This document shows positions 11,842-47,267 of a stretch of 64,000 nt of DNA, piece by piece. The stretch is taken from positions 124,001-188,000 of the forward strand of contig NZ_CP100128.1 of the NCBI RefSeq assembly GCF_024207115.1. Reading direction: 5' to 3'. Within the stretch, counting starts at the first letter, position 1. Every line of letters begins with the position of its first letter. A model generated the notes under the pieces. That model was not told where the DNA came from. It did no database searches and worked only from the letters and a program-made list of their open reading frames with translations. This DNA comes from Chromobacterium sp. IIBBL 290-4 (GTDB taxonomy: Bacteria; Pseudomonadota; Gammaproteobacteria; Burkholderiales; Chromobacteriaceae). The translations under genes were made by a program, and so were the position numbers.

Positions 11842-11899
11842 GCCCCCCCCTACTCCGTGCCCGCCGTCACTGGATTTAACTGGTTTGCAAAGCCTACTT

Positions 11900-12003: not shown

Positions 12004-12066
12004 TTATATGAAAACCTAAAACTGGACAAAACACACCACTTACCTGCAGCAGCGGAAAAGTTACGC

Positions 12067-12350: not shown

Positions 12351-12362
12351 AAGGTCGGCAGG

Positions 12363-13703
12363 CTAGACGTGCAACAGCAGAAACCGCCGCTCCCAGGGGC
12401 TGATCACGTCGAAGTACTCGCGGTACTCCGCTTCCTTGATCGCCGCATAGGTTTCAATGAAATGCTCGCCGAAGATTTCCGCCAGCGGCTCGCAACGCAG
12501 CAGCATGTCGATGGCGTCGTCCAGGTGGCGCGGCAGCTGGTGCGGCTGCTCGTAGGCGCTGCCGGACAGGGGGGCGGAAGGCTGCACCTGTTCGCTCATG
12601 CCGATGAAGCCGCAAGCCAGGCTGGCCGCCATCGCCAGATAAGGATTGACGTCCACGCCGGCCAGACGGTTTTCCACCCGCCGCGCCTGCGGGCCGGAGT
12701 GCGGCACCCTCAGGCCGCAGGTGCGGTTGTCGTAGCCCCAGCTCAGATTGATAGGCGCCGAGGTGTAGCGGCTCAAGCGCCGGTAGGAGTTCACATACGG
12801 CGCGAAGAAGGGCATCGCCGCCGGCAGGTATTTCTGCAGCCCGCCGATGAAGTGCAGAAATTGCGGCGAGGGGTTGCCGTCGTCCAGGCTGAAGATATTG
12901 CGGCCGCTGGCGATGTCCACCACGCTCTGGTGCATATGCATGGCGCTGCCCGGCTGGCCCTGCATGGGCTTGGCCATGAAGGTGGCGTACATATTGTTGC
13001 GGATCGCCACCTCGCGCACGGTGCGCTTGAACAGAAACACCTGGTCGGCCAGCTCCAGCGGATCGCCGTGGTCCAGGTTGATCTCCATCTGCGCCGTGCC
13101 CATCTCGTGGATCAGCGTGTCCAGCGCCAGGCCCTGCGCCTCGCACCAGTCGTACATCACGTCGAAGATGTCGTCGTACTCGTTCACCGCGTCGATGGAA
13201 AAGCTTTGCATCCCCGCCTCGGTGCGGCGGGTGCGGCCGACGGGCGGGCGCAGCGGCAGGTCTTCGTCCGGCTGGATTTCCACCAGGTAGAACTCCATCT
13301 CCGGCGCGATGACCGCATTCCAGCCATTGTCCTGATACAGTTTGAGGATGCGCTTGAGCACATTGCGCGGCGACAGATCCACCGGCAGCCCTTCGAAGGT
13401 GCAACAGTCGTGGATGATCTGGGCGGTGGGTTCCTTGTTCCACGGCACCGGCCGGATGGTGCTGGCGTCCGGCAGCAGCTTCATGTCCGGATCGGCCACC
13501 GAGGTGAAATCGCGCTCGGGGTAGTCGCCGGTCACCGTCATGGTGAGCACGGCCTCCGGCAGCCGCAGCCCTTCGGCGGGGTTGTATTTGTGGCGCGGCA
13601 CGATCTTGCCGCGGGCCAGGCCGGTCATGTCCGGGATCAGGCACTCCACTTCGGTGATATGGTGCTCGTCGAGCCATTGATTGATGGTACTGGCACTGTC
13701 CAT
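12363..13703 (-). CDS. puuA: Gamma-glutamylputrescine synthetase PuuA
   Basis: The product has 446 residues and belongs to the glutamine-synthetase fold family. The segments AKPMQGQPGSAMHMHQSV, FAPYVNSYRRL, SAPINLSWGYDNRTCGLRVP and the terminal SPWERRFLLLHV follow E. coli PuuA closely. That enzyme condenses glutamate and putrescine with ATP to start the Puu catabolic route. Metal and ATP residues are present in EMEFYLVE and NPYLAMAASLACG. The start at 13703 has an AGAGG site and gives the family length; an earlier start would add a Cys-rich, atypical leader. No other puu genes adjoin. Together with the agmatine deiminase it suggests that this neighbourhood handles polyamines. Confidence 0.9.
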   Translation of the reverse strand: MDSASTINQWLDEHHITEVECLIPDMTGLARGKIVPRHKYNPAEGLRLPEAVLTMTVTGDYPERDFTSVADPDMKLLPDASTIRPVPWNKEPTAQIIHDCCTFEGLPVDLSPRNVLKRILKLYQDNGWNAVIAPEMEFYLVEIQPDEDLPLRPPVGRTRRTEAGMQSFSIDAVNEYDDIFDVMYDWCEAQGLALDTLIHEMGTAQMEINLDHGDPLELADQVFLFKRTVREVAIRNNMYATFMAKPMQGQPGSAMHMHQSVVDIASGRNIFSLDDGNPSPQFLHFIGGLQKYLPAAMPFFAPYVNSYRRLSRYTSAPINLSWGYDNRTCGLRVPHSGPQARRVENRLAGVDVNPYLAMAASLACGFIGMSEQVQPSAPLSGSAYEQPHQLPRHLDDAIDMLLRCEPLAEIFGEHFIETYAAIKEAEYREYFDVISPWERRFLLLHV

Positions 13704-14009
13704 AAAGCCTCTGGTCGCATTATTGGTTGCCCGGCAACAGCGCCGGGCGGCACAAGACAAGCGGCGGCGGGAACCGAAACCGGCGCGCCGCCGTCAAAGA
13801 CAACCGGAAACACCGGCCGCTTCAGCGGCGAGATCATCTCCCTTTCGAGATAAAGATTTGGCAAATTCGCGCAGCGCGCGCCAAACCATCCTAGTCATGC
13901 CTGCTGCCGGCAGGCAATGGCCGGCGCGTCCGAAACCGTCAAACTGCCCGCCAGTAGGACAAAGCATGCAACAAGACGGCACCCGCAAAGTGTATTAGAA
14001 TTAAGCGAT
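13704..14009. other. Divergent intergenic region puuA / DUF748 gene
   Basis: These 306 bp separate puuA (minus) from the AsmA-like gene (plus). The half next to the plus-strand gene is more AT-rich, with a possible -10 (TAGAAT, 13996-14001). No convincing regulator palindrome or gene was seen. Confidence 0.35.
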
Positions 14010-30936: not shown

Positions 30937-31839
30937 ATGCAGGATTTCGATCGCTTTTTGCTGACTGTCGTCTACGACATTCCCAACCTGATTTTCGTGG
31001 TCGACCCCGAAAGCGGGCGCATCGTTTACGCCAACCCCTCCATGCATGAACGGCTGGGAGACGACTGCGTCGGCCGCGCCTTCGGCGACCAATTTCCCGG
31101 CGCGGGCGGCAGCCACTGCTTCATCGGCTACAAGCAGCACGCTGTCGAACAGGAGCAGGGGCCTCCGCAGCAAACCGAGTATTACGACGACGAGTCGGAA
31201 AACTGGTATCACGTGCAGCAGCGGCAAATCCGCTGGATAGACGGCACGGCCAAAATCGTCTGCGTGCTCAGCGAGATCAACGCGCTCAAACGCCTGCAAA
31301 AAGACCTGACCGAGGCGCACGCCACCCTGGCGTTCAAGAACCGCGAGCTGGAAATCTCGGCCAAGACCGACCGGCTGACCAGCCTGTACAACCGCTACCA
31401 TCTGGACCAGGCGCTGCAGACCGAATACCAGCGCTTCCGCCGCTATGGCAAACCCTTCGCCATGCTGCTGGCCGATTGCGACCATTTCAAAGAAGTGAAC
31501 GACACCTTCGGCCACCAGACCGGCGACATCGTCCTGATCGAGCTCGCCCGCCTGCTGCAGGCCAATTTGCGCGCCACCGATACGCTGGGCCGCTGGGGGG
31601 GCGAAGAGTTTCTGGCCATTCTGCCGGAGACCGGCCTGGCCAATGCCGCGCAGCTGGCCGACAAGCTGCGCGACAAGATCGCCAGCCATGACTTTCCCGT
31701 CGTGGGGCGGAAAACCGCCAGCTTCGGCGTGGCGGAAGCCCGCCCCGGAGAAGACATCAAGGAGCTGATCGCCCGGGTGGACCAGGCCCTGTACCTCGCC
31801 AAGAACCAAGGACGCAACCGAGTGGAAGTCAACTCGTGA
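30937..31839 (+). CDS. Diguanylate cyclase with N-terminal PAS domain
   Basis: The product has 300 residues. A PAS-like domain (about 5-115: IPNLIFVVDPESGRIVYANPSM) is joined by a helical linker to a GGDEF domain with the active-site motif GGEEF (221-225) and an intact product-inhibition site RATD five residues earlier. It should make c-di-GMP. It has no membrane segment, so it is a cytosolic sensor enzyme. ATG 30937 is chosen because a longer frame from a GTG at 30850 only adds an Arg/Ala-rich, non-conserved stretch; that choice is uncertain. It opens a run of five plus-strand genes ending with the HPt/CheX kinase, and is probably part of that operon. Confidence 0.9.
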   Translation: MQDFDRFLLTVVYDIPNLIFVVDPESGRIVYANPSMHERLGDDCVGRAFGDQFPGAGGSHCFIGYKQHAVEQEQGPPQQTEYYDDESENWYHVQQRQIRWIDGTAKIVCVLSEINALKRLQKDLTEAHATLAFKNRELEISAKTDRLTSLYNRYHLDQALQTEYQRFRRYGKPFAMLLADCDHFKEVNDTFGHQTGDIVLIELARLLQANLRATDTLGRWGGEEFLAILPETGLANAAQLADKLRDKIASHDFPVVGRKTASFGVAEARPGEDIKELIARVDQALYLAKNQGRNRVEVNS

Positions 31840-31888
31840 AGCCAGAGCCGCGAAACGGCCCCAAACCGTTTTCGACCGAGGAGCCCGC

Positions 31889-32260
31889 ATGCGAAGCAAG
31901 CGATTTCTTGTGGTAGACGACTCTCCCGCCGTGATCAAACGGCTATCGCTGATCCTGGAGGCGCTGGGACACGAGGTGATAGGCTCGGCCTGCAATGGCC
32001 TGGACGCCATCGCCAAAGCCGGCCAGCTGCAGCCTGACGCCATCACCATGGACATCCAGATGCCGGAGCTGGACGGGCTGGAAGCCACCCGGCGCATCTT
32101 GCAAGACCATCCGGACAAACCCGTCATCATCATCACCGCCCATGGCCAGGAAAGCACCGTCGTGGACGCCATCGGCGCCGGCGCCAAATACTTCATCTGC
32201 AAGCCGATAGAAAAAGACAAGGTGGACGAAGTGCTGCGCAAGGTGTTCCGAGATGAATAG
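31889..32260 (+). CDS. CheY-like single-domain response regulator
   Basis: The product has 123 residues, a bare receiver domain. FLVVDDSPAVIKRL carries the acidic pair, MDIQMPELDG the phosphoacceptor (Asp55), and IITAHGQ and CKPIEKDKV the conserved Thr and Lys. It has no output domain, so it acts as a phosphate shuttle or by protein contact. It lies 49 nt after the diguanylate cyclase and 54 nt before the first binding protein. The kinase three genes downstream has a CheX-like phosphatase domain, which makes this receiver its likely partner. A GAGGAG site precedes the start. Confidence 0.92.
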   Translation: MRSKRFLVVDDSPAVIKRLSLILEALGHEVIGSACNGLDAIAKAGQLQPDAITMDIQMPELDGLEATRRILQDHPDKPVIIITAHGQESTVVDAIGAGAKYFICKPIEKDKVDEVLRKVFRDE

Positions 32261-32314
32261 GGCGCGGCCCGCCGCGGCCTGACGCGCCAGCGCCGCTTAG
32301 GAAAGACCACGGCC

Positions 32315-33217
32315 ATGACTCCACGCCTAGCCGCCGCCCGCAGCCTAGCGGCATGGTTTGCCATGCTGCCGCTCTGTCTGAGCGGCCACGCCGATGCCCG
32401 CTCCCTGGCCGACATCCTGAAAACCCGCCAGCTGCGCGTCTGCATTGCGCCCATACACAGCGCCATCGCCATCGCCACGCCCAAAGACTGCCGCGAGCAA
32501 TGCACCTTCTCCGGCCTGGTCTGGGAGGAAGTGCAAGCCTTCGCCCGCAATCTGGGCGATGTCAAAATCAAGGCGCTGCGCATAGGCTGGGACGAGCAGT
32601 TCTTCGACAAAAACGGCAAAACCGACCGCGACGGCAGCTATACCCCGCAGTTGCTGGCCAGCGGCGCTTGCGACCTCTACCCCAGCCGGCTGACCAAGAC
32701 CGCGTGGCGGCTGAAGAAAATGGACTTCGTCACCTTGTTTCCCAGCCGCATGATGGTCATCGCCGGCCATGACTGGCACGACAGGCTGAAAAGCAGCGCC
32801 CAGTTGGCCGGGCTCAGCGCGGCGGCGGAGCGGGACACCTCCTATCACACCTGGCTGCTGGAGCAGAATCGCACCGTTTACGCGGCCAATCCGGTCCGCA
32901 TCGAGCTAATGCCGACCGACGACGGCCTGGCCGCCGTGGACAACGGCAAGGTGGATTTCACCATGCTGGATTCGGACATCGCCATCTGGAGCGCCCATCA
33001 TCAGCTGAAGCATGCCTTCGTCGCCTTCCCGGTGGGCCCCAAGGATGAGATCGGCTGGGCCTTCCGCAAAGAGGATAAAGACCTGCAAGAAGCGGTGAGC
33101 CGTTTTTTCGATGATCAACGAAGCCATCCAGACTCCGAATTCAACCGGATCTGGAAACGCTATCACGGCCGCACCCTGACCGAATTCATTTCGCTGGTGG
33201 CGGCGGTAAACGGATGA
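32315..33217 (+). CDS. Periplasmic solute-binding protein, family 3 type (paralogue A)
   Basis: The product has 300 residues with a signal peptide ending near GHADARS (about 29). The two-lobed binding fold shows VCIAPIHSA, YTPQLLASGACDLYPSRLT, the MDFVTLFPSRMMVIAG hinge and DFTMLDSDIAIW. Three cysteines (RVCIAP, DCREQC) are shared with the next protein. No permease or ATPase gene is near, so it probably presents its ligand to a sensor, as in BvgS-type and other binding-protein-fed kinases. The following paralogue starts 14 nt later and the kinase follows at once, supporting a sensory role. Confidence 0.85.
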   Translation: MTPRLAAARSLAAWFAMLPLCLSGHADARSLADILKTRQLRVCIAPIHSAIAIATPKDCREQCTFSGLVWEEVQAFARNLGDVKIKALRIGWDEQFFDKNGKTDRDGSYTPQLLASGACDLYPSRLTKTAWRLKKMDFVTLFPSRMMVIAGHDWHDRLKSSAQLAGLSAAAERDTSYHTWLLEQNRTVYAANPVRIELMPTDDGLAAVDNGKVDFTMLDSDIAIWSAHHQLKHAFVAFPVGPKDEIGWAFRKEDKDLQEAVSRFFDDQRSHPDSEFNRIWKRYHGRTLTEFISLVAAVNG

Positions 33218-33231
33218 GCGGGAGGCATGCC

Positions 33232-34134
33232 ATGAAAGCCCATGCGCGCGGACGCGCAATTTTGCAGGCCGTCTTGACGATCGCGCTCTCGGGCGTGTTG
33301 GCGCCGGCGTCGGCGCGCTCCTTGAAAGAGGTGCTGCAATCCCGGCAGCTGCGCGTCTGCATCGTGCCGGTCAATTCCGCGTCCGTCATCGTCAAGCCCA
33401 AAGACTGCCGCGAACAGTGCGAATTCTCCGGTCCGGTATACGAGGAAGTGCAAGCCTTCGTCCGCAATCTGGGGCCAGGCATCCGCCTCAAAAGCATCCG
33501 GATAGAATGGGACGAGCAGTTTTACGACAAGACCGGCCGCACCGATATAGAAGGCAGCTACACGCCGCAGTTGCTGGCCAGCGGCGCTTGCGACATCTAC
33601 CCCAGCCGCATCACCAAAAACGCCTGGCGGCTGAAGAAAATGGACTTCGTCACCCTGTTTCCCAACCGGATGATGGTCGTCGCCAATGTGTCGCGCAAGG
33701 CGCAATTGAAATCGCCGGCCGACCTCGCCGGCCTGAGCGCGGCGGTGGACCGCAACACCTCGTACCACTCCTGGCTACTTGAGCAAAACCACGGCCCGTA
33801 CGCCGCCAAGCCCGTCAAGATCACGGTCTTGAAAACAGAAGACAGCTTGAGGGCGGTGGACGGCGGCAAGGTCGACTTCACCATCCTGGACTCGGACATC
33901 GCCATCTGGGATACCCGCTACCTGCTCAAGCATACCTATGTGGCGTTTCCGATCGGCGCCATGGACGAGATAGGCTGGGCCTTCCGCAAGGACGACAAGG
34001 ACCTTCAAGCGGCCGCCGCCCGCTTTTTCGCCCAGCAAAAGCAAGACGAGCGCTCGGAGCTGAATCAGATCTGGGTCCGCCACCACGGGCTCAGCCTGAA
34101 CCGCTTCATCACGCTGGTGAACTCCACGCAATAG
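33232..34134 (+). CDS. Periplasmic solute-binding protein, family 3 type (paralogue B)
   Basis: The product has 300 residues and is similar to its neighbour along the whole length (KDCREQCEFSGPVYEEVQAFVRNLG, SGACDIYPSRIT, KKMDFVTLFPNRMM, VDFTILDSDIAIWDT). A signal peptide ends around PASARS. ATG 33232 has a GGAGG site 6 nt upstream; an earlier ATG (33214) overlaps the previous stop. Its stop is 3 nt before the kinase start, implying coupled translation. Two tandem paralogues suggest two related ligands or a heterodimeric input. The ligand is not readable. Confidence 0.85.
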   Translation: MKAHARGRAILQAVLTIALSGVLAPASARSLKEVLQSRQLRVCIVPVNSASVIVKPKDCREQCEFSGPVYEEVQAFVRNLGPGIRLKSIRIEWDEQFYDKTGRTDIEGSYTPQLLASGACDIYPSRITKNAWRLKKMDFVTLFPNRMMVVANVSRKAQLKSPADLAGLSAAVDRNTSYHSWLLEQNHGPYAAKPVKITVLKTEDSLRAVDGGKVDFTILDSDIAIWDTRYLLKHTYVAFPIGAMDEIGWAFRKDDKDLQAAAARFFAQQKQDERSELNQIWVRHHGLSLNRFITLVNSTQ

Positions 34135-34137
34135 GCG

Positions 34138-37100
34138 ATGATCCTCTTCCACGCGCTGCGCGCCCGGCTGCGCCACTCCATCCGCGACAGGCTGATCGCG
34201 ATGACCTCCATCATCGTGATGGGCATGGCCTGCGCGCTGACGCTGGTCATCGCGCTGGGCGCCGCGGCCATGCTCAGGCAGGCGGCGGAGCGGCAGCTCA
34301 GCCAGAGCCTGGATCAAAGCGCCGCGCTGTTGAGCAATTTTCTGTCTGCGCGGGAATCCAATCTCAATTTGTGGGCGGCCAATCCGCTGGTCGAAGCCAT
34401 GTTCAGCGACCCGGCGCTGGCCGAAGTGTTCGCCCCCAGCCTGGACAGCTACTTCGCCAAGGCCAAAGCCCGCGAGCCCTGGATCGCCCGCATCCTCCTG
34501 CTGCAAAACGATGCCGTCATTTACGACGACAGCGGCAAAATCCCCCCCGGCGCGCTGCGTCTGGCCGAGCTGTCCCGCTTGCCCGACAACAACGTCGCCG
34601 CGATCGCCCCCCGGCAATTCCAGCTGGACATGGAGCAGCCCGCCTTGCTGCTCAAACGGCCGCTATTGAAAGAAGGCGCGGCGCTGCCGGGCGCCTATAT
34701 CGTATTGGCGCTGGACATGGCCCAGATCCAGCAAAGCCTGCTCGCCCGCATCCGCATCGGCGACAATGGCTTTGTCGCGCTGGCCGCCGGCTCTCCGTCC
34801 GCCGGCTTGCTGCTGCCATCCCGCCTCGCCATCAGCGCGGCGTCGCTGGCGGACTTCCGCGATGCCTCGCGCCGCTGGCGCGCGCAGGCGGACATTCCCG
34901 ACCATTACCGCTCCCTGGCGCTGCGCAAGCAGGCGCTGGCCGGCACGCCGCTGGCCTTGATCGGCGCCGCTTCGCAGCAGGATATCCGCGAACCGATAGG
35001 CCAGCTCCTGTTCTATTGCGCCGCCTTCGGCCTGCTGGCCCTGGCCGCCGGCGTGCTGTGCGCCATCTTTTTCGCCAAGCGGCTGACCCACCCGGTGCAG
35101 GATCTGGCGCGGGCGGCGGTGGCGCTGAAAGATGGCAATCTGACCGACCCCATCGCTTGCGCCAGCGAGGACGAGATCGGCCAGCTGGCGGTCAGCCTGG
35201 AGACCACCCGGCACGCGCTGGCGGAACTGGTGGCGGATCTAGAGTCCCGGGTCAGCCAGCGGACTCGGGACTTGTCGCTCAAGAGCGAGGAAGTCGCCCG
35301 CCTGCTGGACAACTCCGGACAGGGGTTTCTGTCCATGGACCCGGCGCTGCGGGTCAACCCCGGCTTCAGCAAAGAATGCCTGCGCATCTTCGGCCAGGAC
35401 ATCCGCGGCCTCGCGCTGCCGGACCTGCTGGCACCGGATCAGATCCGACAACGCGATTTTTTAGCCAAGACCCTGGGCCTGGCCATCTCCAGCGAGGACG
35501 ACCCGCTGCGGCGCGAGGCCTACCTCGACCTGCTGCCCGCCGAATATCGGCTGGGCGGGCACTACTACCGCGCCGAATACAAGCCGCTGGCCGAGGGCGG
35601 CATGATGCTGATCCTCACCGACGTGACCGCCCAGAAGAAACTGCAGGACAAGCTGGCCGACGAGCGCTTGCGGCTGAGTTTCATCGTCCACGCGCTGGAA
35701 TTCCGCGACGACCTGCTGGAGGCGCTGCGCGACTACGACGACTTCCGCCGCCGCAAACTGCCCAGCCTGCTCAGTTTCGAGCCCGACCCGCTCGCCCTGC
35801 TGGCCGACTTGCTGCGCGAACTGCATACCTTCAAGGGCTTGTTCGCCCAAGCCAGCCTGCCCTCCCTGCCCAACGCCTTGCATGAGCTGGAAACGCGCAT
35901 CGCCCGCCTGCGCGACAAAGACGCACTGGAAATCAACGATATCAAGCGCGAGCTGGGCTTGAGCGATCTTGGCAGAGACCTGGAGGCCGATCTGGCCATC
36001 CTGCGGGAAAAGCTCGGCCCCGCCTACCTGAGCTCGGAGCGCGCCGTGCATATTCCCGTCTCCGTTCTGGACGCGCTGGAAGGCGAGGCGAAAAAGCTCT
36101 ATGGCGACGATTCCAGGATGGCGGCGCTGATCCGCCGCTTGCGCTATGAGCCCTTCCGGCAATTGATCGCGCCGCATTTCAAGGCCGCCATGCTGCTGGC
36201 CCAGCGGCAGAACAAGCCGCTCGCGCCCATTGCCTGCGTCGGCGACGAGGCGCTGGTCGATCCCGCCCGCTACGGCCCATTCTGCAAATCGCTGGTCCAT
36301 GTGTTCCGCAACGCGGTGGATCACGGCATCGAGGATGCCGACACCCGCTTGCTGGCAGACAAAAGCGAAGTCGCCGCCATCCATTGCGAATTGACCCGCC
36401 TGCCCGGCGTGCTGCGGCTGACCATCGCCGACGACGGCCGCGGCCTGGACGCGGCGCAGCTGCGGGCCAGCGCCGCTCGCAAAAAGCTTCTGCCCGCGGA
36501 AGCGGCCGCCGCGCTGGACGACGCAGCCGCGTATCGATTGATCCTGCTGGATGGCTTCACCACCCGCCAGACAGCGGACGCGGTTTCCGGGCAGGGCGTG
36601 GGCCTGGCCGCGACGCATAAGGAGCTGCTCCGCCTGGGAGGCGAGCTGCGCATCGAATCCACCCCCGGCCAGGGCGCCGCCTTCGTCTTCACCCTGCCTT
36701 ACTCTCCGCCTGAGCCCCTGGCCGAGCCCCCCGCGCCCAAGGCCGACGCCGCCTTGCTCACGCCGCTGGCGCAAGTCACCCAGGCCTTCTGCCGCGACCA
36801 TCTCAAGCTGGAATTGGATCTGGAAGAGCGGGACGCCTCGCTGCAGACCGCCGAACTGCTGGACTTCACCGCCGTCGTGCCCCTGGGCAGCGGCATAAAC
36901 GCCTTATTGGGCCTGTCCATGGAGCGGCCCTTGCTGCTGGACATGGCGCGGCGTTTCGAGCCCGATTGCCAGGAGGCCGACATCGCGCAGCTAGCCGACA
37001 GCGTCGGCGCGGAAATCGCCAATACCGTGGTCGGCAAAACCACGGTCTATCTCACCCACCTCTCCCGCCATGTGGCGATGGGCACGCCCGAGATCCTCAT

Positions 37101-37221
37101 GCCGGACATGCGCGGCGAATGGCTGCGCCGGCACGCTTGCGTCGGCATTGCCGGCCGCGCGGACGCGGGCCGCTTCATCGTGCTGTGCGCGCACCCCCGC
37201 CCGGTTCCGGCAGCGGAATGA
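34138..37221 (+). CDS. Membrane sensor kinase fusing HPt, CheA-like ATPase and CheX-like phosphatase domains
   Basis: The product has 1027 residues. A membrane helix (about 20-45), a periplasmic sensor (about 46-290), a second helix (about 292-315) and a HAMP segment (about 316-370) are followed by a PAS-like part (about 390-500). An HPt domain has LRELHTFKGLF with phosphoacceptor His563. A CheA-type ATPase shows HVFRNAVDHGIED (Asn725), DDGRGLD (765-771) and GQGVGLAA (about 819-826). The last 145 residues resemble CheX/CheC phosphatases, with the E-x-x-N motif EIAN (Glu959, Asn962). No HisKA domain is present. It would autophosphorylate on the HPt histidine, pass phosphate to the CheY-like receiver in the operon, and perhaps remove it. 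Domain limits are estimates. Confidence 0.85.
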   Translation: MILFHALRARLRHSIRDRLIAMTSIIVMGMACALTLVIALGAAAMLRQAAERQLSQSLDQSAALLSNFLSARESNLNLWAANPLVEAMFSDPALAEVFAPSLDSYFAKAKAREPWIARILLLQNDAVIYDDSGKIPPGALRLAELSRLPDNNVAAIAPRQFQLDMEQPALLLKRPLLKEGAALPGAYIVLALDMAQIQQSLLARIRIGDNGFVALAAGSPSAGLLLPSRLAISAASLADFRDASRRWRAQADIPDHYRSLALRKQALAGTPLALIGAASQQDIREPIGQLLFYCAAFGLLALAAGVLCAIFFAKRLTHPVQDLARAAVALKDGNLTDPIACASEDEIGQLAVSLETTRHALAELVADLESRVSQRTRDLSLKSEEVARLLDNSGQGFLSMDPALRVNPGFSKECLRIFGQDIRGLALPDLLAPDQIRQRDFLAKTLGLAISSEDDPLRREAYLDLLPAEYRLGGHYYRAEYKPLAEGGMMLILTDVTAQKKLQDKLADERLRLSFIVHALEFRDDLLEALRDYDDFRRRKLPSLLSFEPDPLALLADLLRELHTFKGLFAQASLPSLPNALHELETRIARLRDKDALEINDIKRELGLSDLGRDLEADLAILREKLGPAYLSSERAVHIPVSVLDALEGEAKKLYGDDSRMAALIRRLRYEPFRQLIAPHFKAAMLLAQRQNKPLAPIACVGDEALVDPARYGPFCKSLVHVFRNAVDHGIEDADTRLLADKSEVAAIHCELTRLPGVLRLTIADDGRGLDAAQLRASAARKKLLPAEAAAALDDAAAYRLILLDGFTTRQTADAVSGQGVGLAATHKELLRLGGELRIESTPGQGAAFVFTLPYSPPEPLAEPPAPKADAALLTPLAQVTQAFCRDHLKLELDLEERDASLQTAELLDFTAVVPLGSGINALLGLSMERPLLLDMARRFEPDCQEADIAQLADSVGAEIANTVVGKTTVYLTHLSRHVAMGTPEILMPDMRGEWLRRHACVGIAGRADAGRFIVLCAHPRPVPAAE

Positions 37222-37248: not shown

Positions 37249-39393
37249 TCAGAAGTATTCCACGCCGGCCAAAGGCACGCCGTTGAGGCGCTGGCGGATG
37301 AACTCCCCGGCTTCCGCGGCCGGCACCGGGCGGCTGAGCAGATAGCCTTGCACCACATCGACATGGATGCTGGCCAGGAAAGTCAGCTGCTGCTCGGTCT
37401 CCACCCCCTCGGCCACCACGCGCAGGCCCATGCGGTGGGCAAGATAGGCGATGGTGTCGCATAAGGCGTTGTCGCGCTCGTCGCTGGAGATATTGCGGAT
37501 GAAAGACTGGTCTATCTTCAGCGTGTCCACCGGGAAACGGGTGAGATAAGCCAAGGAGGAATGGCCAGTGCCGAAGTCGTCGATCGCGCAGTGGATGCCC
37601 ATGTCGCGGAATTGGCGCAGCATCTGGATGGACTGCGGCGGCGACAGCATGGTGAAGGATTCGGTGATTTCCAGCTCAAGCGCCTCCGGCGCCACCCCGG
37701 TCTTGGCCAAGGTGTCGGCGATGAACTGGGTCAAGTCCACATCGGTGAACTGCGCCACGCTGAGGTTCACCGACATCCGGATATCGCCCAAACCCTGCTG
37801 CTGCCAACTTTTCAGCTGCCGGCAAGCCTCCTGCAGCACCCAGCGGCCCAGCGGCAGGATCAGGCCGGACTGCTCCGCCACCGGGATGAAGCTGGCCGGC
37901 GAAATCATGCCGCGCTCGGGGTGCGGCCAGCGCGCCAGCGCCTCCACCCCCACCACCCGGCCGGTGTTCAGCTCCACCTGCGGCTGGTAGTAAAGCACCA
38001 GTTGGCTATGGTCTATGGCTTGGCGCAAGGCCTTTTCCAGCTCGATCCGCTCCCGCATCCGCTCCACCAGGCCGGTCTCGAAAGCGTAATAGCGATGCAC
38101 CACTTGCTGCTTGGCATGGTAAAGCGCCATATCGGCGTTGCGCAGCAATTCGCTGCCGCTCTTCCCATGCTGCGGGCACAAGCTCACCCCCACGCTGGCC
38201 GAGATATGCAAGGTCATCTCGTCGATATTGTAGGGCGCGGCCACCACTTCCAGCATGCGCTCGGCCATGGCTTCGGCATGGGCGGTGTCAGCCACGTCAT
38301 TGAGCAGCAGCACGAACTCCACGCCGCCATGCCGCGCCACCATACCGTTGCCGTTCACCAGCCGCTGCAGCCGGGCCGCCAGCTCCCGCAGCAGCAAGTC
38401 GCCCACCCGATTGCCATAGACATCGTTGATGAATTTGAAATCCTCCAGCTCCAGCAGCAACACGGCGAAGGCATGGTTGCCCACCTTTTGGCAAACCTGC
38501 GACAGCGTGTCCAGCTTTTCCATCAAGCCGCTCTGGTTGACCAGCCCGGTCAGGGAATCGAAATACGCCAGCCGGTTGATGCGCTCCTGCGCCGCCACCC
38601 GCGAAGAGATGTCGATATAGCTGACTCGCAGCAAATGGCTGGTTTCGCTCGGCAAGCGGCTCAAGCGCACCTCGCAGGGCACCCGGCGGCCATCGGGCCG
38701 GATGATCACGCGCTCAAACAGCTGCACCTCGCCCTGCATCGCCCTATCGGCATGCATGCGCACGCTCTCGGTGGTGGGCAGGCCGTCCGGCTGTTGCTCG
38801 TCGTACAGGGAAATGGGGGAAAGACCCGTCAATTCGGCTATCGTGCGCCCGGTCAACAGCTCGGCTTGTTGATTGGCGTCGACGAAAACGCCGCGATCGC
38901 GGTCGAACACCATGATGGCTTCCGGCGCTTGCTCGATCAGGGCGCGGAAACGCTGCTCGCTGACGCGCAGGGATTCGGTCTTCTCCTCCACCAGCTTGCT
39001 CAGCCGCTTCTTCAGCCGCGCCAGATCCAGATGGGTATTGACGCGCGCCAGCAGTTCGCTGCGTTCGAAAGGCTTGCCGATGAAATCCACCGCGCCGGCG
39101 GCAAAGCCCTCCACCTTGGTGTCGGTATCGGCGATGGAGCTGAGAAACAGAATGGGGATATCGCGGGTGCGCGGGTTCATTTTCAGCTCGCGGCATACCG
39201 CCAGCCCATCCATGTCCGGCAGGCTGAAGTCCAGCAAAATCAAATCTGGCGACTTTTGAGAGACGAGCGACAGCGCCTCGGCGCCGCTCTGCGCCGAGCT
39301 GACTTGATAGCCCTCGGTTGACAGCAAGGCCAGCAGCATCATCAGCGTGGTCAGGGTGTCATCCACCACCAATATGTCGCCCGGCATCGGCAT
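37249..39393 (-). CDS. Response regulator REC-PAS-GGDEF-EAL (c-di-GMP phosphodiesterase likely)
   Basis: The product has 714 residues. A receiver (1-125; LILLDFSLPDMDG, Asp55, Lys in IGKPF) is followed by a helical linker, a PAS domain (about 150-265), a GGDEF domain whose signature is degenerate (GGVEF) and an EAL domain with the catalytic motifs VGVEALARW, EITES, IDDFGTGHSSLAYL, KIDQSFI and VAEGVET. The GGDEF part is therefore probably inactive or only binds GTP, and the EAL part should degrade c-di-GMP. It is convergent with the HPt/CheX kinase and shares the signalling block with a diguanylate cyclase. Its receiver could be served by any of the three kinases around it. Confidence 0.92.
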   Translation of the reverse strand: MPMPGDILVVDDTLTTLMMLLALLSTEGYQVSSAQSGAEALSLVSQKSPDLILLDFSLPDMDGLAVCRELKMNPRTRDIPILFLSSIADTDTKVEGFAAGAVDFIGKPFERSELLARVNTHLDLARLKKRLSKLVEEKTESLRVSEQRFRALIEQAPEAIMVFDRDRGVFVDANQQAELLTGRTIAELTGLSPISLYDEQQPDGLPTTESVRMHADRAMQGEVQLFERVIIRPDGRRVPCEVRLSRLPSETSHLLRVSYIDISSRVAAQERINRLAYFDSLTGLVNQSGLMEKLDTLSQVCQKVGNHAFAVLLLELEDFKFINDVYGNRVGDLLLRELAARLQRLVNGNGMVARHGGVEFVLLLNDVADTAHAEAMAERMLEVVAAPYNIDEMTLHISASVGVSLCPQHGKSGSELLRNADMALYHAKQQVVHRYYAFETGLVERMRERIELEKALRQAIDHSQLVLYYQPQVELNTGRVVGVEALARWPHPERGMISPASFIPVAEQSGLILPLGRWVLQEACRQLKSWQQQGLGDIRMSVNLSVAQFTDVDLTQFIADTLAKTGVAPEALELEITESFTMLSPPQSIQMLRQFRDMGIHCAIDDFGTGHSSLAYLTRFPVDTLKIDQSFIRNISSDERDNALCDTIAYLAHRMGLRVVAEGVETEQQLTFLASIHVDVVQGYLLSRPVPAAEAGEFIRQRLNGVPLAGVEYF

Positions 39394-39508
39394 GCACTCG
39401 CCCCCATCGGCATTGCGGCTATCTCCAGTCTAGCCGGTTTTAATCGCTTCGCGAAAACACTGATTGTCTACACTGCAACATAAATCGAGACAGGATCGGG
39501 GCGGGTCT

Positions 39509-42500
39509 ATGAAACTGACTGTGGGCAAGAACATGGCCTTGCTGGTGGCCACCGCGCTGCTGGGTCTCTCCATGCTGACGGCGCTGGAACAGTATCTGTT
39601 GGAGAAGGTTTACGACGGCGCCAATTACGCCAATATCAATGCCGTTCCCAGCCTCAAGGCGCTCGGCGATCTGCGCCGCGCCTTCCAGGAAGTCAGCATC
39701 CAGACCAGCCGGCTGGTTTACGCCGGCGACAAGAGCGAGCAGAACAAGGTAGAAACCAAGCTGGAGCGCGCCCGCGCCGACGTCAGCCAAGCGATACGCG
39801 CCTATGAAGTCGACGGCTGCGCCGGCGTCAGCTGCTTTGCCGATGAGACCGACCGCGCCGACCTGGAAAGGGAAAAACCGGTTTGGGCTCAATACCAGTC
39901 CAAGCTGGATCTGATGCTGGCCGTCATAGAAGACAAGGAGTCCAACCAAGCCAAGAGCCGGGACCTGGTGCTGGCCATGGATCCCATCTCGGATCAACTG
40001 CAAAAGCTGATCGACGAGCACGTCGATTACAATATGGTGATCGCCCGAAAGTTCTCCGACGAGGCGGCGCTCACCAAGCGCGGCGCCATCCAGCTGACGC
40101 TGATCATCAGCGCGGCCATGCTGCTGGCCATCGGCCTGCTGGGCTGGCTGACCAGCCGCTCCATACTCAGCCGGCTGGGCGGCGAGCCGACCGAGGCCGC
40201 CGACATCGCCTCCCGTCTGGCCGAAGGCGACCTCGACGTCAACATCCAACTGCGCGCCGGCGACGACAGCAGCCTGATGGCCCGCTTGCAGGAGTTGGTC
40301 GGCGCGCTGGACACGCTGGCCAGCCGCGCCTACGCCATAGGCCAGGGCGACCTGAGCCAGGAAGTGCGGCTGGCGTCGAACAAGGACAAGCTCGGCATCG
40401 CCATCAACGACATGATCAGAATGCTGCGCGGCGCCCGCGTCGAAGACGAGCGCCGCAATTGGCTGAAAGACGGTTACGGCCAGATTTCGGCGGCGCTGAC
40501 CGGCGACCTCACCACCGAACAGCTGGCCGACGCCGCCATCGGCATGATAGGCCGCTACCTGGAAGCCGGCCGCGGCGTGTTCTATCTGTATCAAGACGCC
40601 GACAAATCGCTGCAGTTGATAGGCAGCTATATGTACACCGAACGCCAGCACATCGGCGCCCGCTTTTCGCTGGGCGAGGGCGCGGTGGGCCAGGTGGCGC
40701 GCGAGCGCAAACCCATCATTCTCGAAATCGGCAGCGGCGGCGGAGAGGAAGCCGCCCCCATCGTCACCGGCACCGCGCTGACCCTGCCGCGCTACACCTA
40801 TACCTATCCCTTGCTGCACGAAAAGGAAATGGTGGGCGTGATCGAGCTGTCCAGCATGCAGCGCTTCGACGAGCGCAAACTGGAATTCCTGGCCAGCGTC
40901 AGCGGCATGCTGGCCTCCTTCCTGTTCGTGGCCGAGCAGCGCGTGCACATCCGCAAGCTGCTGTCGGCCAGCGAGGCGGCGGAAAAGGAAATGCGCCAGC
41001 AAAGCGAGCAGCTGCGCGAAAGCAATGCCCGCATGGAAGAGCAGCAGCAGCAATTGCAGCAACAATCGGAAGAACTGCAGCAAAGCAATGCCCAAATGGA
41101 AGAAGTGCAGCAGCAGCTGCGCCAGCAAACCGAGGAGCTGCAGCAGACCAACGCGCAGATGGAAGAATCGCAGCAGCAGCTGGAACAGCAGAACCAGGAA
41201 TTGCAGGAGTCCCGCAAGCAGCAGGAAAACAAGGCGCAGGAACTGGAGCAGGCCAGCAAATACAAGTCGGAATTCCTGGCCAATATGTCGCACGAGCTGC
41301 GCACGCCGCTCAACTCCATCATTCTGCTGTCCAAGATGATGGTCAACGACGACCAGGGCAAGGTAGACGGCGAAGCGCTGAAATGGGCGCAGGTGATCCA
41401 CCGTTCCGGCGAGGACCTGCTGCGGCTGATCAACGACGTGCTCGACCTGTCCAAAGTGGAGGCCGGCCGCATGGACGTGCACCTGGCCACCTTGAACAGC
41501 GCCGAACTCTGCACCGAGCTGCAAGGCATGTTCGAACATCTGGCAAGCGACAAGGGGCTGGACTTCATCATCGATGACCAGTTGCGCGCCGACTTTGTGA
41601 CCGACCCGGACAAACTGTCGCAAATTTTGCGCAATCTGCTCACCAACGCCATCAAATTCACCCGCCAGGGCAGCGTCACGCTCTGCCTGGCGCGCCACGA
41701 AGACACGCCGCTGCCTATCAGCCTAACGGTGAAGGACACCGGCATCGGCATTCCCGAAGAAAAGCGCGGCATGATCTTCGAAGCCTTCCAGCAAGCCGAC
41801 GGCTCCACCTCGCGCGAATTCGGCGGCACCGGCCTCGGCCTCACCATCAGCCAGCGCTTCGCCGAAATGCTGGGCGGGCTGATCGAACTGCGCAGCGCGC
41901 CCGGCCAGGGCAGCGAATTCATACTCTGGCTGCCCGACGCCCACGCCGCCGCCAACGGCGTCGAGCCGGCCAAGCATCACGCGCTGCCCGCCGCGCCGGC
42001 CGACGACCGCAACCAGCTGCATGCCGGCGACCGCATCATTCTGCTGATAGACGACGATCCGGTGTTCAGCCGCATGCTGCTGACGATGAACCGCCGGCTC
42101 GGCTATAAAACGCTGCTGGCGGCCAGCGGCGGCGAAGGCCTGGCCCTGGCCGGCCGCCACCGGCTGAGCGGCATTCTGCTAGACCTGAGCCTGCCCGATA
42201 TGGACGGCACCCAGGTGCTGCACGAGATCAAGACCCGCCCCGAACTGGCGGGCATCCCGGTGTATATCGTTTCGGCGCGCGACCGCGACGAGGCCTTGCT
42301 GCATCAGGGTGCCATCGGCTTCCTGACCAAACCGGCCAGCGACCAGCGGCTGGCGGCGGCCGAAGCCGAGCTGATACGCGCGGTTGGCGGCAGCAGCGAC
42401 GGCATCCTGGTGGTGGAGCGCGGCGGCATCCGCCACGAGGAGGTTTCCGAGCTGGTCGGCGCCGCCGGCGGCGCGGTGCAAGCCGCGCCTGCCGACGCCG

Positions 42501-43195
42501 ACTGGCCCGCATGGCTGCAACAGCACCCCGCGCGGCTGGCCATCATCGATCTGGGCGAATCGCCCGCCGCCGACAGCCTGGCCACCGCCGCCGCGCTGCG
42601 CGCCGCCGCACCCGCCATCGCCCTGGTGTTCTTCGCCACGCAAACGCCCAGCGATGAAGACGAGGCGGCCTTGCGCGCCTACACCGACTGCGTGATCGTC
42701 AAAACGCCGCAGGCCGGCCAACGGCTGCTGGAAAATGTGGAGCGCTTCCTGCAAGACGTGCCCAGGCAGCAGGCGACGCAGCAGAACCCGCCGCCCGCCG
42801 CCGGCAGCAAGCTGCTGGAGGGCAAGCGCATCCTGGTGGTGGACGACGATCCGCGCAATCTGTTCGTGATCACGGCGGCCCTGGAGCGGCATGGGGCCGC
42901 CATCAGCAATGCGGTGAACGGCAAGCGGGCGCTGGAATACCTCGCCCGCGAGCGTCCCGACCTGGTGCTGATGGACATCATGATGCCGGAAATGGATGGC
43001 TATCAGACCATCGCCGAAATCCGCGCCCATCCCGACTGGGCCAGCCTGCCGGTGGTGGCCATCACTGCCAAGGCGCTGCCGACCGAGCGCGAGAAAATCC
43101 TCAACGCCGGCGCCGACGACTATCTGTCCAAGCCGGTGGATTACGACCTGCTGGTGGCCAAAGCCTCGCAATGGAGCGGAGGCCGCGGCCGATGA
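39509..43195 (+). CDS. Hybrid sensor histidine kinase with GAF, Gln-rich coiled coil and three receiver domains
   Basis: The product has 1228 residues. An N-terminal helix, a periplasmic four-helix-type sensor (about 25-185), a second helix (about 195-220) and HAMP are followed by a GAF domain (about 330-480). A glutamine-rich coiled coil (about 495-580) has repeated EELQQSNAQMEE heptads. HisKA (MSHELRTPLN, His595) and the ATPase domain come next. Three receivers end the protein: REC1 (Asp892 in LLDLSLPDMDG), a degenerate middle one (IDLGESPAADS) and REC3 (Asp1156 in LMDIMMPEMDG). The stop overlaps the CheB-CheR start (ATGA at 43192). ATG 39509 is preferred to an upstream TTG. The architecture is typical of large phosphorelay hubs. 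Confidence 0.92.
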   Translation: MKLTVGKNMALLVATALLGLSMLTALEQYLLEKVYDGANYANINAVPSLKALGDLRRAFQEVSIQTSRLVYAGDKSEQNKVETKLERARADVSQAIRAYEVDGCAGVSCFADETDRADLEREKPVWAQYQSKLDLMLAVIEDKESNQAKSRDLVLAMDPISDQLQKLIDEHVDYNMVIARKFSDEAALTKRGAIQLTLIISAAMLLAIGLLGWLTSRSILSRLGGEPTEAADIASRLAEGDLDVNIQLRAGDDSSLMARLQELVGALDTLASRAYAIGQGDLSQEVRLASNKDKLGIAINDMIRMLRGARVEDERRNWLKDGYGQISAALTGDLTTEQLADAAIGMIGRYLEAGRGVFYLYQDADKSLQLIGSYMYTERQHIGARFSLGEGAVGQVARERKPIILEIGSGGGEEAAPIVTGTALTLPRYTYTYPLLHEKEMVGVIELSSMQRFDERKLEFLASVSGMLASFLFVAEQRVHIRKLLSASEAAEKEMRQQSEQLRESNARMEEQQQQLQQQSEELQQSNAQMEEVQQQLRQQTEELQQTNAQMEESQQQLEQQNQELQESRKQQENKAQELEQASKYKSEFLANMSHELRTPLNSIILLSKMMVNDDQGKVDGEALKWAQVIHRSGEDLLRLINDVLDLSKVEAGRMDVHLATLNSAELCTELQGMFEHLASDKGLDFIIDDQLRADFVTDPDKLSQILRNLLTNAIKFTRQGSVTLCLARHEDTPLPISLTVKDTGIGIPEEKRGMIFEAFQQADGSTSREFGGTGLGLTISQRFAEMLGGLIELRSAPGQGSEFILWLPDAHAAANGVEPAKHHALPAAPADDRNQLHAGDRIILLIDDDPVFSRMLLTMNRRLGYKTLLAASGGEGLALAGRHRLSGILLDLSLPDMDGTQVLHEIKTRPELAGIPVYIVSARDRDEALLHQGAIGFLTKPASDQRLAAAEAELIRAVGGSSDGILVVERGGIRHEEVSELVGAAGGAVQAAPADADWPAWLQQHPARLAIIDLGESPAADSLATAAALRAAAPAIALVFFATQTPSDEDEAALRAYTDCVIVKTPQAGQRLLENVERFLQDVPRQQATQQNPPPAAGSKLLEGKRILVVDDDPRNLFVITAALERHGAAISNAVNGKRALEYLARERPDLVLMDIMMPEMDGYQTIAEIRAHPDWASLPVVAITAKALPTEREKILNAGADDYLSKPVDYDLLVAKASQWSGGRGR

Positions 43196-44892
43196 ATGTT
43201 TCGGTGCAAAAGAAGGACGACATCCGCCGCGCCGTGATCCTGGGCGCCATGGACAAGCAGGAAGACCATGACGCCTTGCTGGCGCTGCTGGAGCAGACGC
43301 CGGAACAGGCGCTGGAGCTGTGTTTCTACGACGCCGACGCTTTGCCCGCCGACCTCCTGGCCGCGCTTTCCGCCAGGCTGGACCGCGGCGGCCGCCTGAA
43401 GATCCTGGCCTATCGTGCATTGCTGGCCCACACCCTGTCCCGGCTCGGCCTGCCGGCCCGGCAGGTCAGCCAGCAAGCCGCGCCGGCCGAGCCCCGCGCG
43501 CCGCTCCAGGCCATCGCGCTGGCCGGTTCGGCGCAAAGCCTGGAAAGCATACTGCGCATTGTGGAAAGCCTGCCGCTGGCCGACATCGCGGTCTTCGTCG
43601 CCCAGCATGTGCAGGAAAACCAGATCAATCTGCTGGATCAGCTGCTGCAGACTCGCACCGATTACCGGGTGGAAATGCCGCAGCATATGACGCGAATCGA
43701 AGCCGGCCGCCTGTATGTGGCGCCGCCAGGCCACCACATGAAGGCGGCGCACGGCTATGTCTACCTGACGCGCGACCGGCAAATCCAGTTCGCCCGCCCC
43801 TCCATCGACGCCCTGTTCCAATCCTTGGCCGGAGAATACGGCCCCAGCCTGCTGGCGGCGCTGCTATGCGGCTTCGGCAGCGACGGCGTGGACGGCTGCG
43901 CCGCCATCCGCGCCGCCGGCGGCTGCGTCATCGTGCAGGACGGCAGCGAATGCGCTCCGGCGCGGGTGATGCCGGACGCGGCCCGCGACGCCGGCCATTA
44001 CTCGCTGGCGCTGAAACTGCCCGCCATCTGCAGCTTCGCCGCCGCCATGGCCGCAGGACCGGCCGCCAAGCCCGAGGGCGACTTGCTGGAGCTGTTTTTG
44101 TCCGCCCTGGCCAGCCACTACGGCTGGGACTTCCGGCATTATCAGCGCGACAGCCTGCAGCGCCGCGTCGTCAATCTGATGGGGCAATTCAATCTGCGCG
44201 TGTTCGCCGACTTCCAGCGCGCGGTGCTGACCGACACCTCCCAGTTCGAGAGGCTGGCCGCGGAACTGCCGGTTGGCGTGACCAGCTTTTTCCGCCACCC
44301 CCCTCAACTCAAGCTATTGCGCGAAGAGGTGCTGCCCTATCTGTCCAGCTTTCCGCTGATCAAGCTGTGGTCGGCCGGCTGCTCCAGCGGCGAGGAACCC
44401 TACTCCCTGGCCATCATGCTGGAAGAGCTGGCGCTGCTGGATCGCAGCCATGTATTCGCCACCGACCTCAACCCCTACCTGCTGGAACTGGGCGCCAGCA
44501 GCCTGTTCCCGCGCGACGCGCTGGCGCTCAATCGGCAAAACTATCTGGCCAGCGGCGGCGAGAGGCTGTTCGACGCCTATCTGACCGACAATGGCCGCTT
44601 TTTGCGGCTGGCCGACGCGCTGCGGCAGCGCATTCTGTTCTACCGCCACTCGCTGACCGACGAAGGCGTGTTCAATGAATTTCAGCTGATCGTCTGCCGC
44701 AATGTGCTGATCTATTTCGACGCCGAGCTGCAGCGCCAGGTGCTGCGCCGCTTCGCCCGCTCGCTGCACGCCGACGGCTTCCTGGTGCTGGGCCCGCAGG
44801 ACGGCCTGCACCGGCAGGCGCTGGACTCGGGCTTCGAGCCCTATCGCCGCGGCAGCAGCGTCTATCGACTGGCCAGGAGCGCCGCGGCATGA
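43192..44892 (+). CDS. CheB-CheR fusion (methylesterase-methyltransferase)
   Basis: The product has 566 residues. After an unclear N-terminal 105 residues comes a CheB-like methylesterase domain with the catalytic triad visible: Ser113 in LAGSAQS, His139 in AQHVQEN and Asp231 in [10 protein letters not shown] CheR methyltransferase domain follows (about 300-566; [43 protein letters not shown]). In standard chemotaxis these activities set receptor methylation; in fused form they are common near hybrid kinases without receptors. Starts and stops overlap both neighbours, so the three genes are translated as one unit. The target of methylation is unknown; the coiled coil of the upstream kinase is a possible substrate. 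Confidence 0.9.
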
Positions 44893-47267
44893 GCGAGCTT
44901 TTTTCCATCTTGGTGGTGGACGACAACATCAATAACCGCGTCACGCTGCGCGCGCTGCTGTCGCGGCTGCCGGACTGCGAGGTCATCGAGGCCGCCTCCG
45001 GCGAGGACGCGCTGATGTCGACGCTGGAAAACGATATCCACCTGATTCTGCTGGATGTGCAGATGCCCGGCATGGACGGTTTTGAAACCGCCGGCCATCT
45101 GCAGATGACGGAGCGGACCCGCAACATTCCCATCGTCTTCGTCACCGCCATTTTCAAGGCCGAAGAATTTTTCAGCCGCGGCTATGGCCTGGGCGCGGTG
45201 GACTATCTGACCAAACCGCTGGACGACAGCCTCTTGCTCAACCGCGTGCGGCTGTACCAGAAGCTGCACCAGCGCGAACAGGCGCTGCGGCTGCGCGGCC
45301 AGGAATTGGAAAGCGCCAATAAACAGCTGAGCGCCCAAACCGAGCATCTGCTGGCCGCGCGCGACGCCGCCGAAGCGGCCAACCGCGCCAAGAGCGAGTT
45401 CCTGGCGGTGATGAGCCATGAAATCCGCACGCCGCTCAACGGCGTGATCGGCATGACCGACCTGCTGCTGAAAACCCGGCTGGACGAGCAGCAGCGTCAT
45501 TACGTCAATGTGGTGCGCCGTTCCGGCGAGAACCTGCTGGCCATCATCAGCGACATCCTGGACTTTTCCAAGATCGAAGCCGGCAAGTTCGAACTCGACA
45601 AGCACCCCTTCTGCCTGAACACGCTGATCGAGGAAGTCGTGGAGAGGCTGTCCCCGGTGGCTTTCGGCAAGGGGCTGGAAATCCTGTGCGCCCTGCCGGC
45701 AAGGCTGATCGAGGTCGTCGGCGACGGCAAGCGCCTGGGGCAAGTCATCACCAATCTGATAGGCAATGCGGTCAAGTTCACCGAGCGCGGGCAGGTGTTG
45801 ATCCGCCTGCGCCTGGAAAACGAGTCGGAGGCGGAGCTCGCCTTCCACGTCAGCGTCCGCGATACCGGGATCGGCATCACGCCGGAGCAGCAGGCGCGCC
45901 TGTTTCGGCCCTTTAGCCAGGCCGACAGCTCCACTACCCGGCGCTTTGGCGGCACCGGACTGGGCCTGGCCATCTCGCAGCGGCTGCTGGGCATGATGAA
46001 CGGCCGGATAGAGCTGCACAGCGAGGCCGACAAGGGCTCGGAATTCCACTTCACGCTGAGCCTGCCCCGCGCGCCTCGCCAGTCCCCGCCGCCCGCGGCC
46101 GCCGACCTCAGCCATATCCGCGCGCTGGTCGTGGACGACAACCCCACCAATCTGGAAATCCTGCAGCACCAGCTGGCCTCCTGGCATTGCCAGGTGCGCG
46201 CGGCGAATGACGCGGCCCAGGCGCTGAAATTGCTGGACGAGCAAAGCGGCGACCCATTCAATCTGATCCTCACCGACATGATGATGCCGGACACCGATGG
46301 GCTGATGCTGCTTCAGCAAGTCCATGAACGCCTGGGAGAGCGCGCGCCGCCGGCCATACTGCTCAGCTCCGCCGCCGATGACTTCCTGCAGGTCAACCGC
46401 GCCATGCAGCTGGCCAAGCAAGTGCTGTCCAAGCCGGTGCGCCGCTCAGAATTGCTCAATGCGCTGCTCAGGCTGGAGGCGGAAGGGCCGGCGGCATCCG
46501 AGGAAGCTACGCCCCGATGCGTCCGGCTGCGCGGCCACGTGCTGCTGGTTGAGGACAATATGGTCAATCAGGAGCTGGCCGGCGCCATGCTGACCAATCT
46601 GGGCTGCACCTTCACGCTGGCGCGCAATGGCGAGCTGGCGCTGGCGGCGCTGGCGGAAAGCCCTTACGACCTGGCGCTGATGGATTGCGAAATGCCGGTG
46701 CTGGACGGCTGGCAGACCACGGCCGCCATCCGGGCCGGCGAAAACGGCCAAACCAGCCGCCTGACCATCGTCGCGCTGACGGCCAACGCCGGCGTGGGCG
46801 AAAGGGAGCGCTGCCTGGATGCCGGCATGGACGACTATTTGAGCAAACCGTTCAACCAGCAGCAGTTAGCCGAAGCGCTGTCGCGCTGGTTGCCGCTGGA
46901 TCTGGAATGCATCCATCAAGAGGAAGCGGAAACGCTCTGGCTGGACCCGGCCACCCACAACGCCATTCATGCCATCCGCTCCGACCTGCTTGAAAAGATG
47001 CTGGCCGCCTGGCTGCAGGAGAGCCCGGCCATGCTGGCCGGCATCCGCCAGGCTATCGCCGCCGACGACGGCCCGGCCTTGTTCCGGCAGGCCCACGCGC
47101 TAAAGAACAGCTCGGCCAGCATAGGCGCGCTGCCGCTGTCCTCGCTATGCCAGACCTTGGAAAAACTGGGCAAGAACGCCGACATCGCCGACGCCGCCAA
47201 ATTGCAGGACCAATTGGACCACGCCTTCTACCACACCATGGAAGCGTTGAAGCAGCTGAGTCCCTGA
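44889..47267 (+). CDS. Hybrid histidine kinase REC-HisKA-HATPase-REC-REC-HPt
   Basis: The product has 792 residues and is cytosolic, with no membrane segment. An N-terminal receiver (Asp56 in [11 protein letters not shown]) is followed by a coiled coil, HisKA ([10 protein letters not shown], His177) and the ATPase ([19 protein letters not shown]). Two more receivers (Asp463 in [11 protein letters not shown]; Asp599 in [11 protein letters not shown]) and a C-terminal HPt domain ([10 protein letters not shown], His736) complete it. All four phosphorelay modules are in one chain. The N-terminal receiver can accept phosphate from the upstream hybrid kinase, giving a two-kinase cascade. The start overlaps the CheB-CheR stop. 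It converges with a minus-strand gene one base beyond its stop. Confidence 0.93.

Follow-up and report, generated by a model that had tools for sequence, protein, structure and literature searches.

A five-gene Chromobacterium operon with a CheA-like kinase fused to CheX, a candidate ligand-to-c-di-GMP switch

Background

Fusions of a kinase to a phosphatase of the CheC/CheX type have a precedent. According to the available text of PMC10542144, CheC or CheX is fused to F1 CheA in Leptospirae, a dual kinase/phosphatase role is suggested for such fusions, and CheA has no sensor domain of its own. Here we analyze an operon of Chromobacterium sp. IIBBL 290-4 that encodes a membrane kinase ending in CheX, together with two periplasmic binding proteins, a CheY-like receiver and a PAS-GGDEF protein. 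The operon lies within a stretch of 64,000 nucleotides (NZ_CP100128.1, positions 124,001 to 188,000), which we call the window and to which its coordinates refer. As far as the Leptospirae proteins are described in the available text (PMC10542144), the window kinase shares with them an HPt domain, a P4-type ATPase, a kinase-borne CheC/CheX domain and a CheY-like target. In contrast to the F1 CheAs, it has a periplasmic domain, two transmembrane segments, a HAMP domain and a short P3, with no listed P5. It also differs from the CheX phosphatases of PDB entries 3hm4, 3h2d and 6vpw, which are separate proteins, whereas in the window the kinase itself ends in a CheX domain. A first-pass annotation of this DNA stated that no system of this layout was known to be described. 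For the idea of fusing kinase and phosphatase that statement does not hold, as the available text of PMC10542144 already suggests the same dual role for CheA-CheC/CheX fusions. For the five-gene layout itself, no description was found in a literature search that covered titles and the beginnings of abstracts, with most subscription journals outside its reach.

Other described systems resemble the proposed output of the operon, the control of the biofilm signal cyclic di-GMP (c-di-GMP). Going by the accessible parts of two reports, the NspS-MbaA polyamine receptor pair of Vibrio cholerae likewise controls c-di-GMP (PMC8967002), and NspS is a periplasmic binding protein (PMC5646818). Unlike the window operon, NspS-MbaA itself both makes and degrades c-di-GMP. 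It reportedly involves no kinase, CheX, receiver or phosphotransfer. In CdgH, also of V. cholerae, two tandem PBPb domains, one of them arginine-binding, feed a diguanylate cyclase; as the available text has it, these domains belong to the cyclase itself and act without phosphotransfer, whereas the window's binding proteins are separate (PMC5431781). In the SiaABCD system of Pseudomonas aeruginosa, a small partner protein activates a GGDEF protein by binding to its stalk, according to the accessible text of PMC8457831. The window operon differs in that it contains no SiaC, and its control would be by histidine-aspartate phosphotransfer. In Caulobacter, the receiver DivK is said to dock on the kinase core of DivL, not on a PAS-GGDEF protein, and CheX is said to be absent. 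DivL is a PAS-bearing kinase homolog that reads DivK, and its PAS domains select the phosphorylated form (PMC4211667, available text), so that this pair may serve as a precedent for PAS domains helping to select one phospho-form of a receiver.

Operon layout and proposed mechanism

The operon consists of five tightly packed genes:

30937..31839, + strand: PAS-GGDEF diguanylate cyclase, 300 amino acids from ATG (Pfam GGDEF 157.8 bits, PAS_8 30.9 bits)
31889..32260, + strand: CheY-like receiver, single domain (Pfam Response_reg 103.3 bits)
32315..33217, + strand: binding protein 1, SBP_bac_3 fold; its start resembles a signal peptide by eye
33214..34134, + strand: binding protein 2, paralog of binding protein 1 (Pfam SBP_bac_3 27.8 bits; alignment)
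34138..37221, + strand: membrane kinase, 1027 amino acids (Pfam, hydrophobicity, predicted structure)

An alternative GTG start at 30850 would give a PAS-GGDEF protein of 329 amino acids. A motif check found both its GGEEF active site and the RxxD I-site, and the key residues of the receiver are Asp55, Thr83 and Lys105. The two binding proteins, which are 65% identical, belong to extracellular solute-binding family 3, i.e., they have the two-lobe fold of amino-acid-binding proteins; PDB sequences gave only weak matches to binding protein 1 (best E 0.0069). Neither an MCP (methyl-accepting chemotaxis protein) chemoreceptor nor CheW is among the five genes, based on the gene list and Pfam. The gene list, Pfam and the predicted fold bear out the parts list and the domain calls of the first-pass annotation.

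We consider it reasonably probable that a binding protein acts on the CheA-like kinase/CheX phosphatase, which in turn sets the state of one receiver and, through a PAS domain, c-di-GMP synthesis. The operon would be a self-contained ligand-to-c-di-GMP phospho-switch made from chemotaxis enzymes, without chemoreceptor or CheW. A ligand-loaded binding protein, whose ligand is probably amino-acid-like, would dock on the periplasmic domain of the kinase, and the HAMP domain and a PAS-like linker would shift how the cytoplasmic part is balanced. The CheA-type ATPase would, in one state, phosphorylate His563 of the HPt region, from which the phosphate would move to Asp55 of the single-domain receiver. 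CheX, at the opposite end of the same protein, would strip this phosphate from the receiver by means of Glu959 and Asn962. The receiver, in either its phosphorylated or its unphosphorylated form, would then bind the PAS-coil of the PAS-GGDEF protein and alter c-di-GMP output.

The first-pass annotation had proposed a complete ligand-to-c-di-GMP switch in five genes. What stands of this proposal is the unit, which is conserved in Chromobacterium with other flanking genes and whose kinase, CheX and receiver, in some cases with a PAS output, recur in distant loci. We infer phosphotransfer, dephosphorylation and the contact between receiver and PAS, and likewise the ligand and the sign of every step. 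The operon is a well-formed, conserved variant of CheA/CheX/CheY signalling, and it probably serves c-di-GMP.

The kinase and its CheX domain

In the kinase, two transmembrane segments (hydrophobic residues 25-43 and 294-312) flank a periplasmic domain and are followed by HAMP, the PAS-like linker, HPt, the CheA-type ATPase and CheX:

34273..34782, + strand: periplasmic domain, weakly dCache-like, residues 46-215 (Pfam dCache_1 22.8 bits, cut-off 45)
35068..35223, + strand: HAMP domain, residues 311-362 (Pfam 44.9 bits)
35680..35913, + strand: HPt region, residues 515-592 (Pfam HPt 20.8 bits, under the cut-off)
36289..36702, + strand: ATPase of the CheA P4 type, residues 718-855
36748..37197, + strand: CheX domain, residues 871-1020

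Domains, key residues, gene order and conservation are read here from sequence and predicted fold, weakly so for the periplasmic domain and for the PAS-like linker, which has no Pfam match. The HPt region is helical in the predicted structure, and its candidate phosphoacceptor, His563 within HTFKG (codon 35824-35826), is invariant in 24 of 24 alignment rows. The motif E-x-x-N holds the catalytic pair of the CheC/CheX/FliY phosphatase superfamily. In the window kinase this pair is Glu959 (codon 37012-37014) and Asn962 (codon 37021-37023), which are kept in 23 and 24 of 25 aligned rows, respectively; one row has Asp, and one is without the region.

Pfam (E <= 0.1) listed no HisKA, CheW-like P5 or dedicated dimerisation domain in the kinase, and a short P3-like stretch aligns with P3P4 of T. 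maritima. Because the P5 and the dimerisation domain are not listed, and with the P4 ATPase and HPt present, we class the kinase as CheA-like, not as CheA. The fold of residues 880-1027 had been named beforehand by the first-pass annotation as one of the points on which its proposal could fail, and structure comparison found that the tail folds as CheX. In this comparison, the top 50 hits of the Foldseek structural search were kinases only, and CheX surfaced in the VIA-align list. The tail had no direct match among PDB sequences up to E 10. Within the window's own genome, the kinase tail is the sole CheX match. This genome also has CheZ, so it is unlikely that the CheX domain serves flagellar chemotaxis.

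For a survey of the family, we took the best 120 of 261 kinase matches, in which the close relatives are P0001-P0021 (21 proteins, the window's included). Most kinases in this set have no CheX tail. A tree made with a quick method from 73 of 104 kinases, 31 CheX-less rows having been thinned out, splits the family from five CheAs with full support in the Shimodaira-Hasegawa-like approximate likelihood ratio test (SH-aLRT). On this tree CheX fusion changes six times, and at least four of these changes are forced.

Scans for the kinase found matches of E < 1e-100 in 5 of 369 genomes at the level of class, 3 of 399 at that of order and 2 of 398 at that of phylum. These counts do not establish scarcity, because at most two candidates were scored per genome and the kinase of one genome (G278) was missed, being found only via CheX. 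A scan for the CheX family gave matches in 12 of 339 genomes of the class (5 with E < 1e-20) and 3 of 398 of the order. In the seven distinct genomes with strong matches, CheX lies in or near a family kinase, one of them (G253) being judged from coordinates only.

Conservation within Chromobacterium

The complete order GGDEF-receiver-SBP-SBP-kinase (SBP being a solute-binding protein) is present in three more Chromobacterium genomes (G003, G004 and G017), and in a fourth (G008) the contig stops within the gene for the first binding protein, and a different contig carries the PAS-GGDEF gene. Cassette proteins are about 58-81% identical across the Chromobacterium loci. None of seven genes flanking the operon in the window travels with the cassette (E 1e-10); the only matches are domain cross-hits to the GGDEF protein and receiver of the cassette itself. 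The cassette is patchy within the genus, since the C-terminal part of the kinase occurs in 5 of 19 genomes. We also considered carriage on plasmids, for which tblastn gave no match at E 1e-20 in 72,556 records. Taken together, the conservation of the cassette with other flanks and the recurrence of kinase, CheX and receiver in distant loci support the view that the five genes would form one working unit.

Kinase, CheX and receiver in distant loci

In each of six distant loci, a family kinase comes with a related receiver and with CheX, the latter either fused to it or encoded by a gene of the same small cluster. Four of them (L130, L133, L134 and L131) encode kinases with the same PAS-like/HPt/ATPase core and no CheX tail. 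Here CheX is a separate gene (162-176 amino acids, 39-42 bits) beside kinase and receiver, the order being kinase-CheX-receiver in the first three and CheX-receiver-kinase in L131. Fusions occur in L024, from an Arcobacter metagenome-assembled genome, where the frame of the kinase-CheX protein stops just past the motif and a receiver follows, and in L154, which has two receivers and a GGDEF protein that shares 30% identity with the window's across 304 residues.

Seven receivers from these loci reach 88-129 bits when compared with the window receiver. Paralogs in its own genome reach at most 74 bits in the nine best loci (of 73 other matches). By these scores, the window receiver resembles receivers linked to kinases in other genomes more than it does the paralogs of the nine loci compared. 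Some lineages link the parts by fusion and others by neighborhood, which speaks for a joint function of kinase, CheX and receiver.

Two more distant loci (L057 and L007) have receivers of about 30% identity, with no tblastn match to the CheX part of the kinase. From one set of 40 loci, the analysis covered L057, L024 and the two that belong to Chromobacterium. The kinase of genome G128 (L132:6388-8442, - strand) has, by eye, Arg in place of the HPt His, and no CheX or receiver was seen in its 9 kb locus; it is probably a decayed or repurposed member of the family.

Some of the distant loci contain further signalling genes. Directly beside the fused kinase-CheX, receiver and GGDEF genes of L154 are SpoIIE, DUF6272 and SiaC-family (PF09345) genes (L154:4860-11751), an arrangement that looks like a Sia-type partner switch joined to a kinase-CheX system. 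A search for SiaC found no match in the window's own genome, and none in any control genome either. In L134, a second kinase with the same core (9291-14969, - strand, 1892 residues), with propeller-like and GAF-like parts by eye, converges on the same receiver gene.

The PAS output

We searched 5.8 billion proteins with residues 25-175 of the PAS-GGDEF protein, considering candidates of about 181-575 amino acids. The 30 matches, including the query's own protein, are 21 PAS-GGDEF proteins (one partial) and 9 PAS-HATPase proteins; a receiver fused to the PAS output was also looked for, and none is listed among them. All 20 complete PAS-GGDEF proteins keep the GGEEF motif and the I-site. The gene that follows the receiver in L130 encodes a PAS-HisKA-HATPase protein whose PAS domain is related to that of the window (33% over 140 residues). 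On the simplest reading of these sequences, the PAS domain would be the reading head of the receiver, by a contact that we infer, and the enzyme behind it would be exchangeable.

Alternative explanations

Several of our results weigh against the mechanism proposed above. We give them here together with the alternatives on which they bear.

The main target of the receiver might lie elsewhere, e.g., in motility or another kinase, with the cyclase answering a ligand of its own PAS domain. The output of a bare receiver is not fixed, and the 9 PAS matches ending in HATPase, not GGDEF, fit this explanation. Among 11 searched genomes with the kinase or the cassette, 6 have a relative of the PAS domain. 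None was found in G067, G584 and G703, which also favor a different target, or in G278 and G128, although the GGDEF protein of L154 is present in G278. Because of these five genomes, other outputs than PAS must, as far as such searches tell, exist. Another single-domain receiver gene of L130 (7102-7509) gave no match to the window receiver. However, the PAS-GGDEF gene adjoins the receiver gene in all three complete Chromobacterium cassettes. Moreover, a PAS-output match lies on a contig of exactly the same size for 8 of the 21 CheX-kinases (7 of 20 without the window), as against 0 of 71 among P0022-P0092 (three of which list CheX) and 0 of 28 CheA-type kinases, i.e., 0 of 99 other kinases; equal contig size is indirect evidence that two genes share a contig, which lessens the weight of this comparison. 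We regard a main target elsewhere as rather improbable.

It is also unlikely, in our estimate, that CheX is a docking or dimerisation part, which would hold the receiver or the kinase dimer and stand in for the missing P2/P5 of CheA. CheX does occupy the position of P5, with no CheW-like domain listed. In addition, four related kinases (P0043, P0047, P0062 and P0063) have full-length CheX-like tails that match a CheX profile and gave no match to the pattern E/D-x-x-N-xxx-G. Two of these tails were seen aligned; Glu is lost in both and Asn in one. (Two of the four kinases carry names from Negativicutes/Sporomusa.) Because of these tails, CheX need not be a phosphatase across the whole family, and the domain can apparently outlive its chemistry. 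Asp replaces Glu in three of the four separate CheX genes. However, all four keep D/E-x-x-N, and Glu959 and Asn962 are kept in nearly all aligned relatives, which is as expected for the phosphatase role that we prefer.

A third explanation, which we find doubtful, is direct sensing by the kinase through a Cache-like domain of its own, the binding proteins being scavengers or passengers without relation to it. The dCache_1 match in the window kinase is weak, as it is in P0002, and the domain is not listed for P0003, P0007 and P0020. The periplasmic domain is for this reason poorly defined, and it could bind ligand itself. The binding-protein family, with 177 matches, is also far wider than the kinase and is widespread on contigs without a CheX-kinase; consequently, it looks recruited by, and not exclusive to, the kinase system. 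Against direct sensing, the binding-protein genes overlap each other by 4 bases, abut the kinase gene (after a gap of 3 bases) and persist in the cassettes read. In addition, 12 of the 21 close relatives of the kinase carry a fused SBP_bac_3 domain (Pfam). By the same comparison of contig sizes as a proxy, and using the 119 of 177 matches with a usable size, free binding proteins accompany 4 of 5 HAMP-type kinases without a fused SBP and 0 of the 12 with one. As a separate observation, binding-protein homologues often occur in at least two copies on contigs of one size that have no CheX-kinase, e.g., four at 7879 bases.

Finally, a chance grouping of neighbors is ruled out, because the cassette recurs with different flanks.

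Neighboring genes

Directly behind the kinase gene, and convergent with it, is a gene for a receiver-PAS-GGDEF-EAL protein (37249-39393, - strand). We rejected it as a member of the unit because, in the loci compared, it does not accompany the cassette. A second signalling set lies near the operon (39464-47267). Its members are a hybrid kinase that carries two receivers, a fusion of CheB and CheR (43171-44892), and a HisKA kinase (44889-47267) that has HPt and three receivers.

Implications

The interest of the operon lies chiefly in the recurrence of its parts as a class. We tentatively suggest, as a serious possibility that we hold with less confidence than the mechanism itself, that they represent an undescribed modular class, in which CheA-type kinases with their own sensors, and without chemoreceptor or CheW, would be combined with fused or clustered CheX, would share one single-domain receiver specific to the family, and would signal to exchangeable effectors (GGDEF or HisKA-HATPase) by way of a dedicated PAS domain that reads this receiver. 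If this is true, chemotaxis enzymes have been turned into stand-alone sensors that physically join the kinase and the phosphatase of one receiver, and a change in what stands behind the PAS domain would swap the output. It would also provide a compact system for the control of a PAS effector by a bare receiver, with one input setting the balance of two opposing activities. Partners would thereby be predicted for many kinases that are currently named only as ATP-binding proteins.

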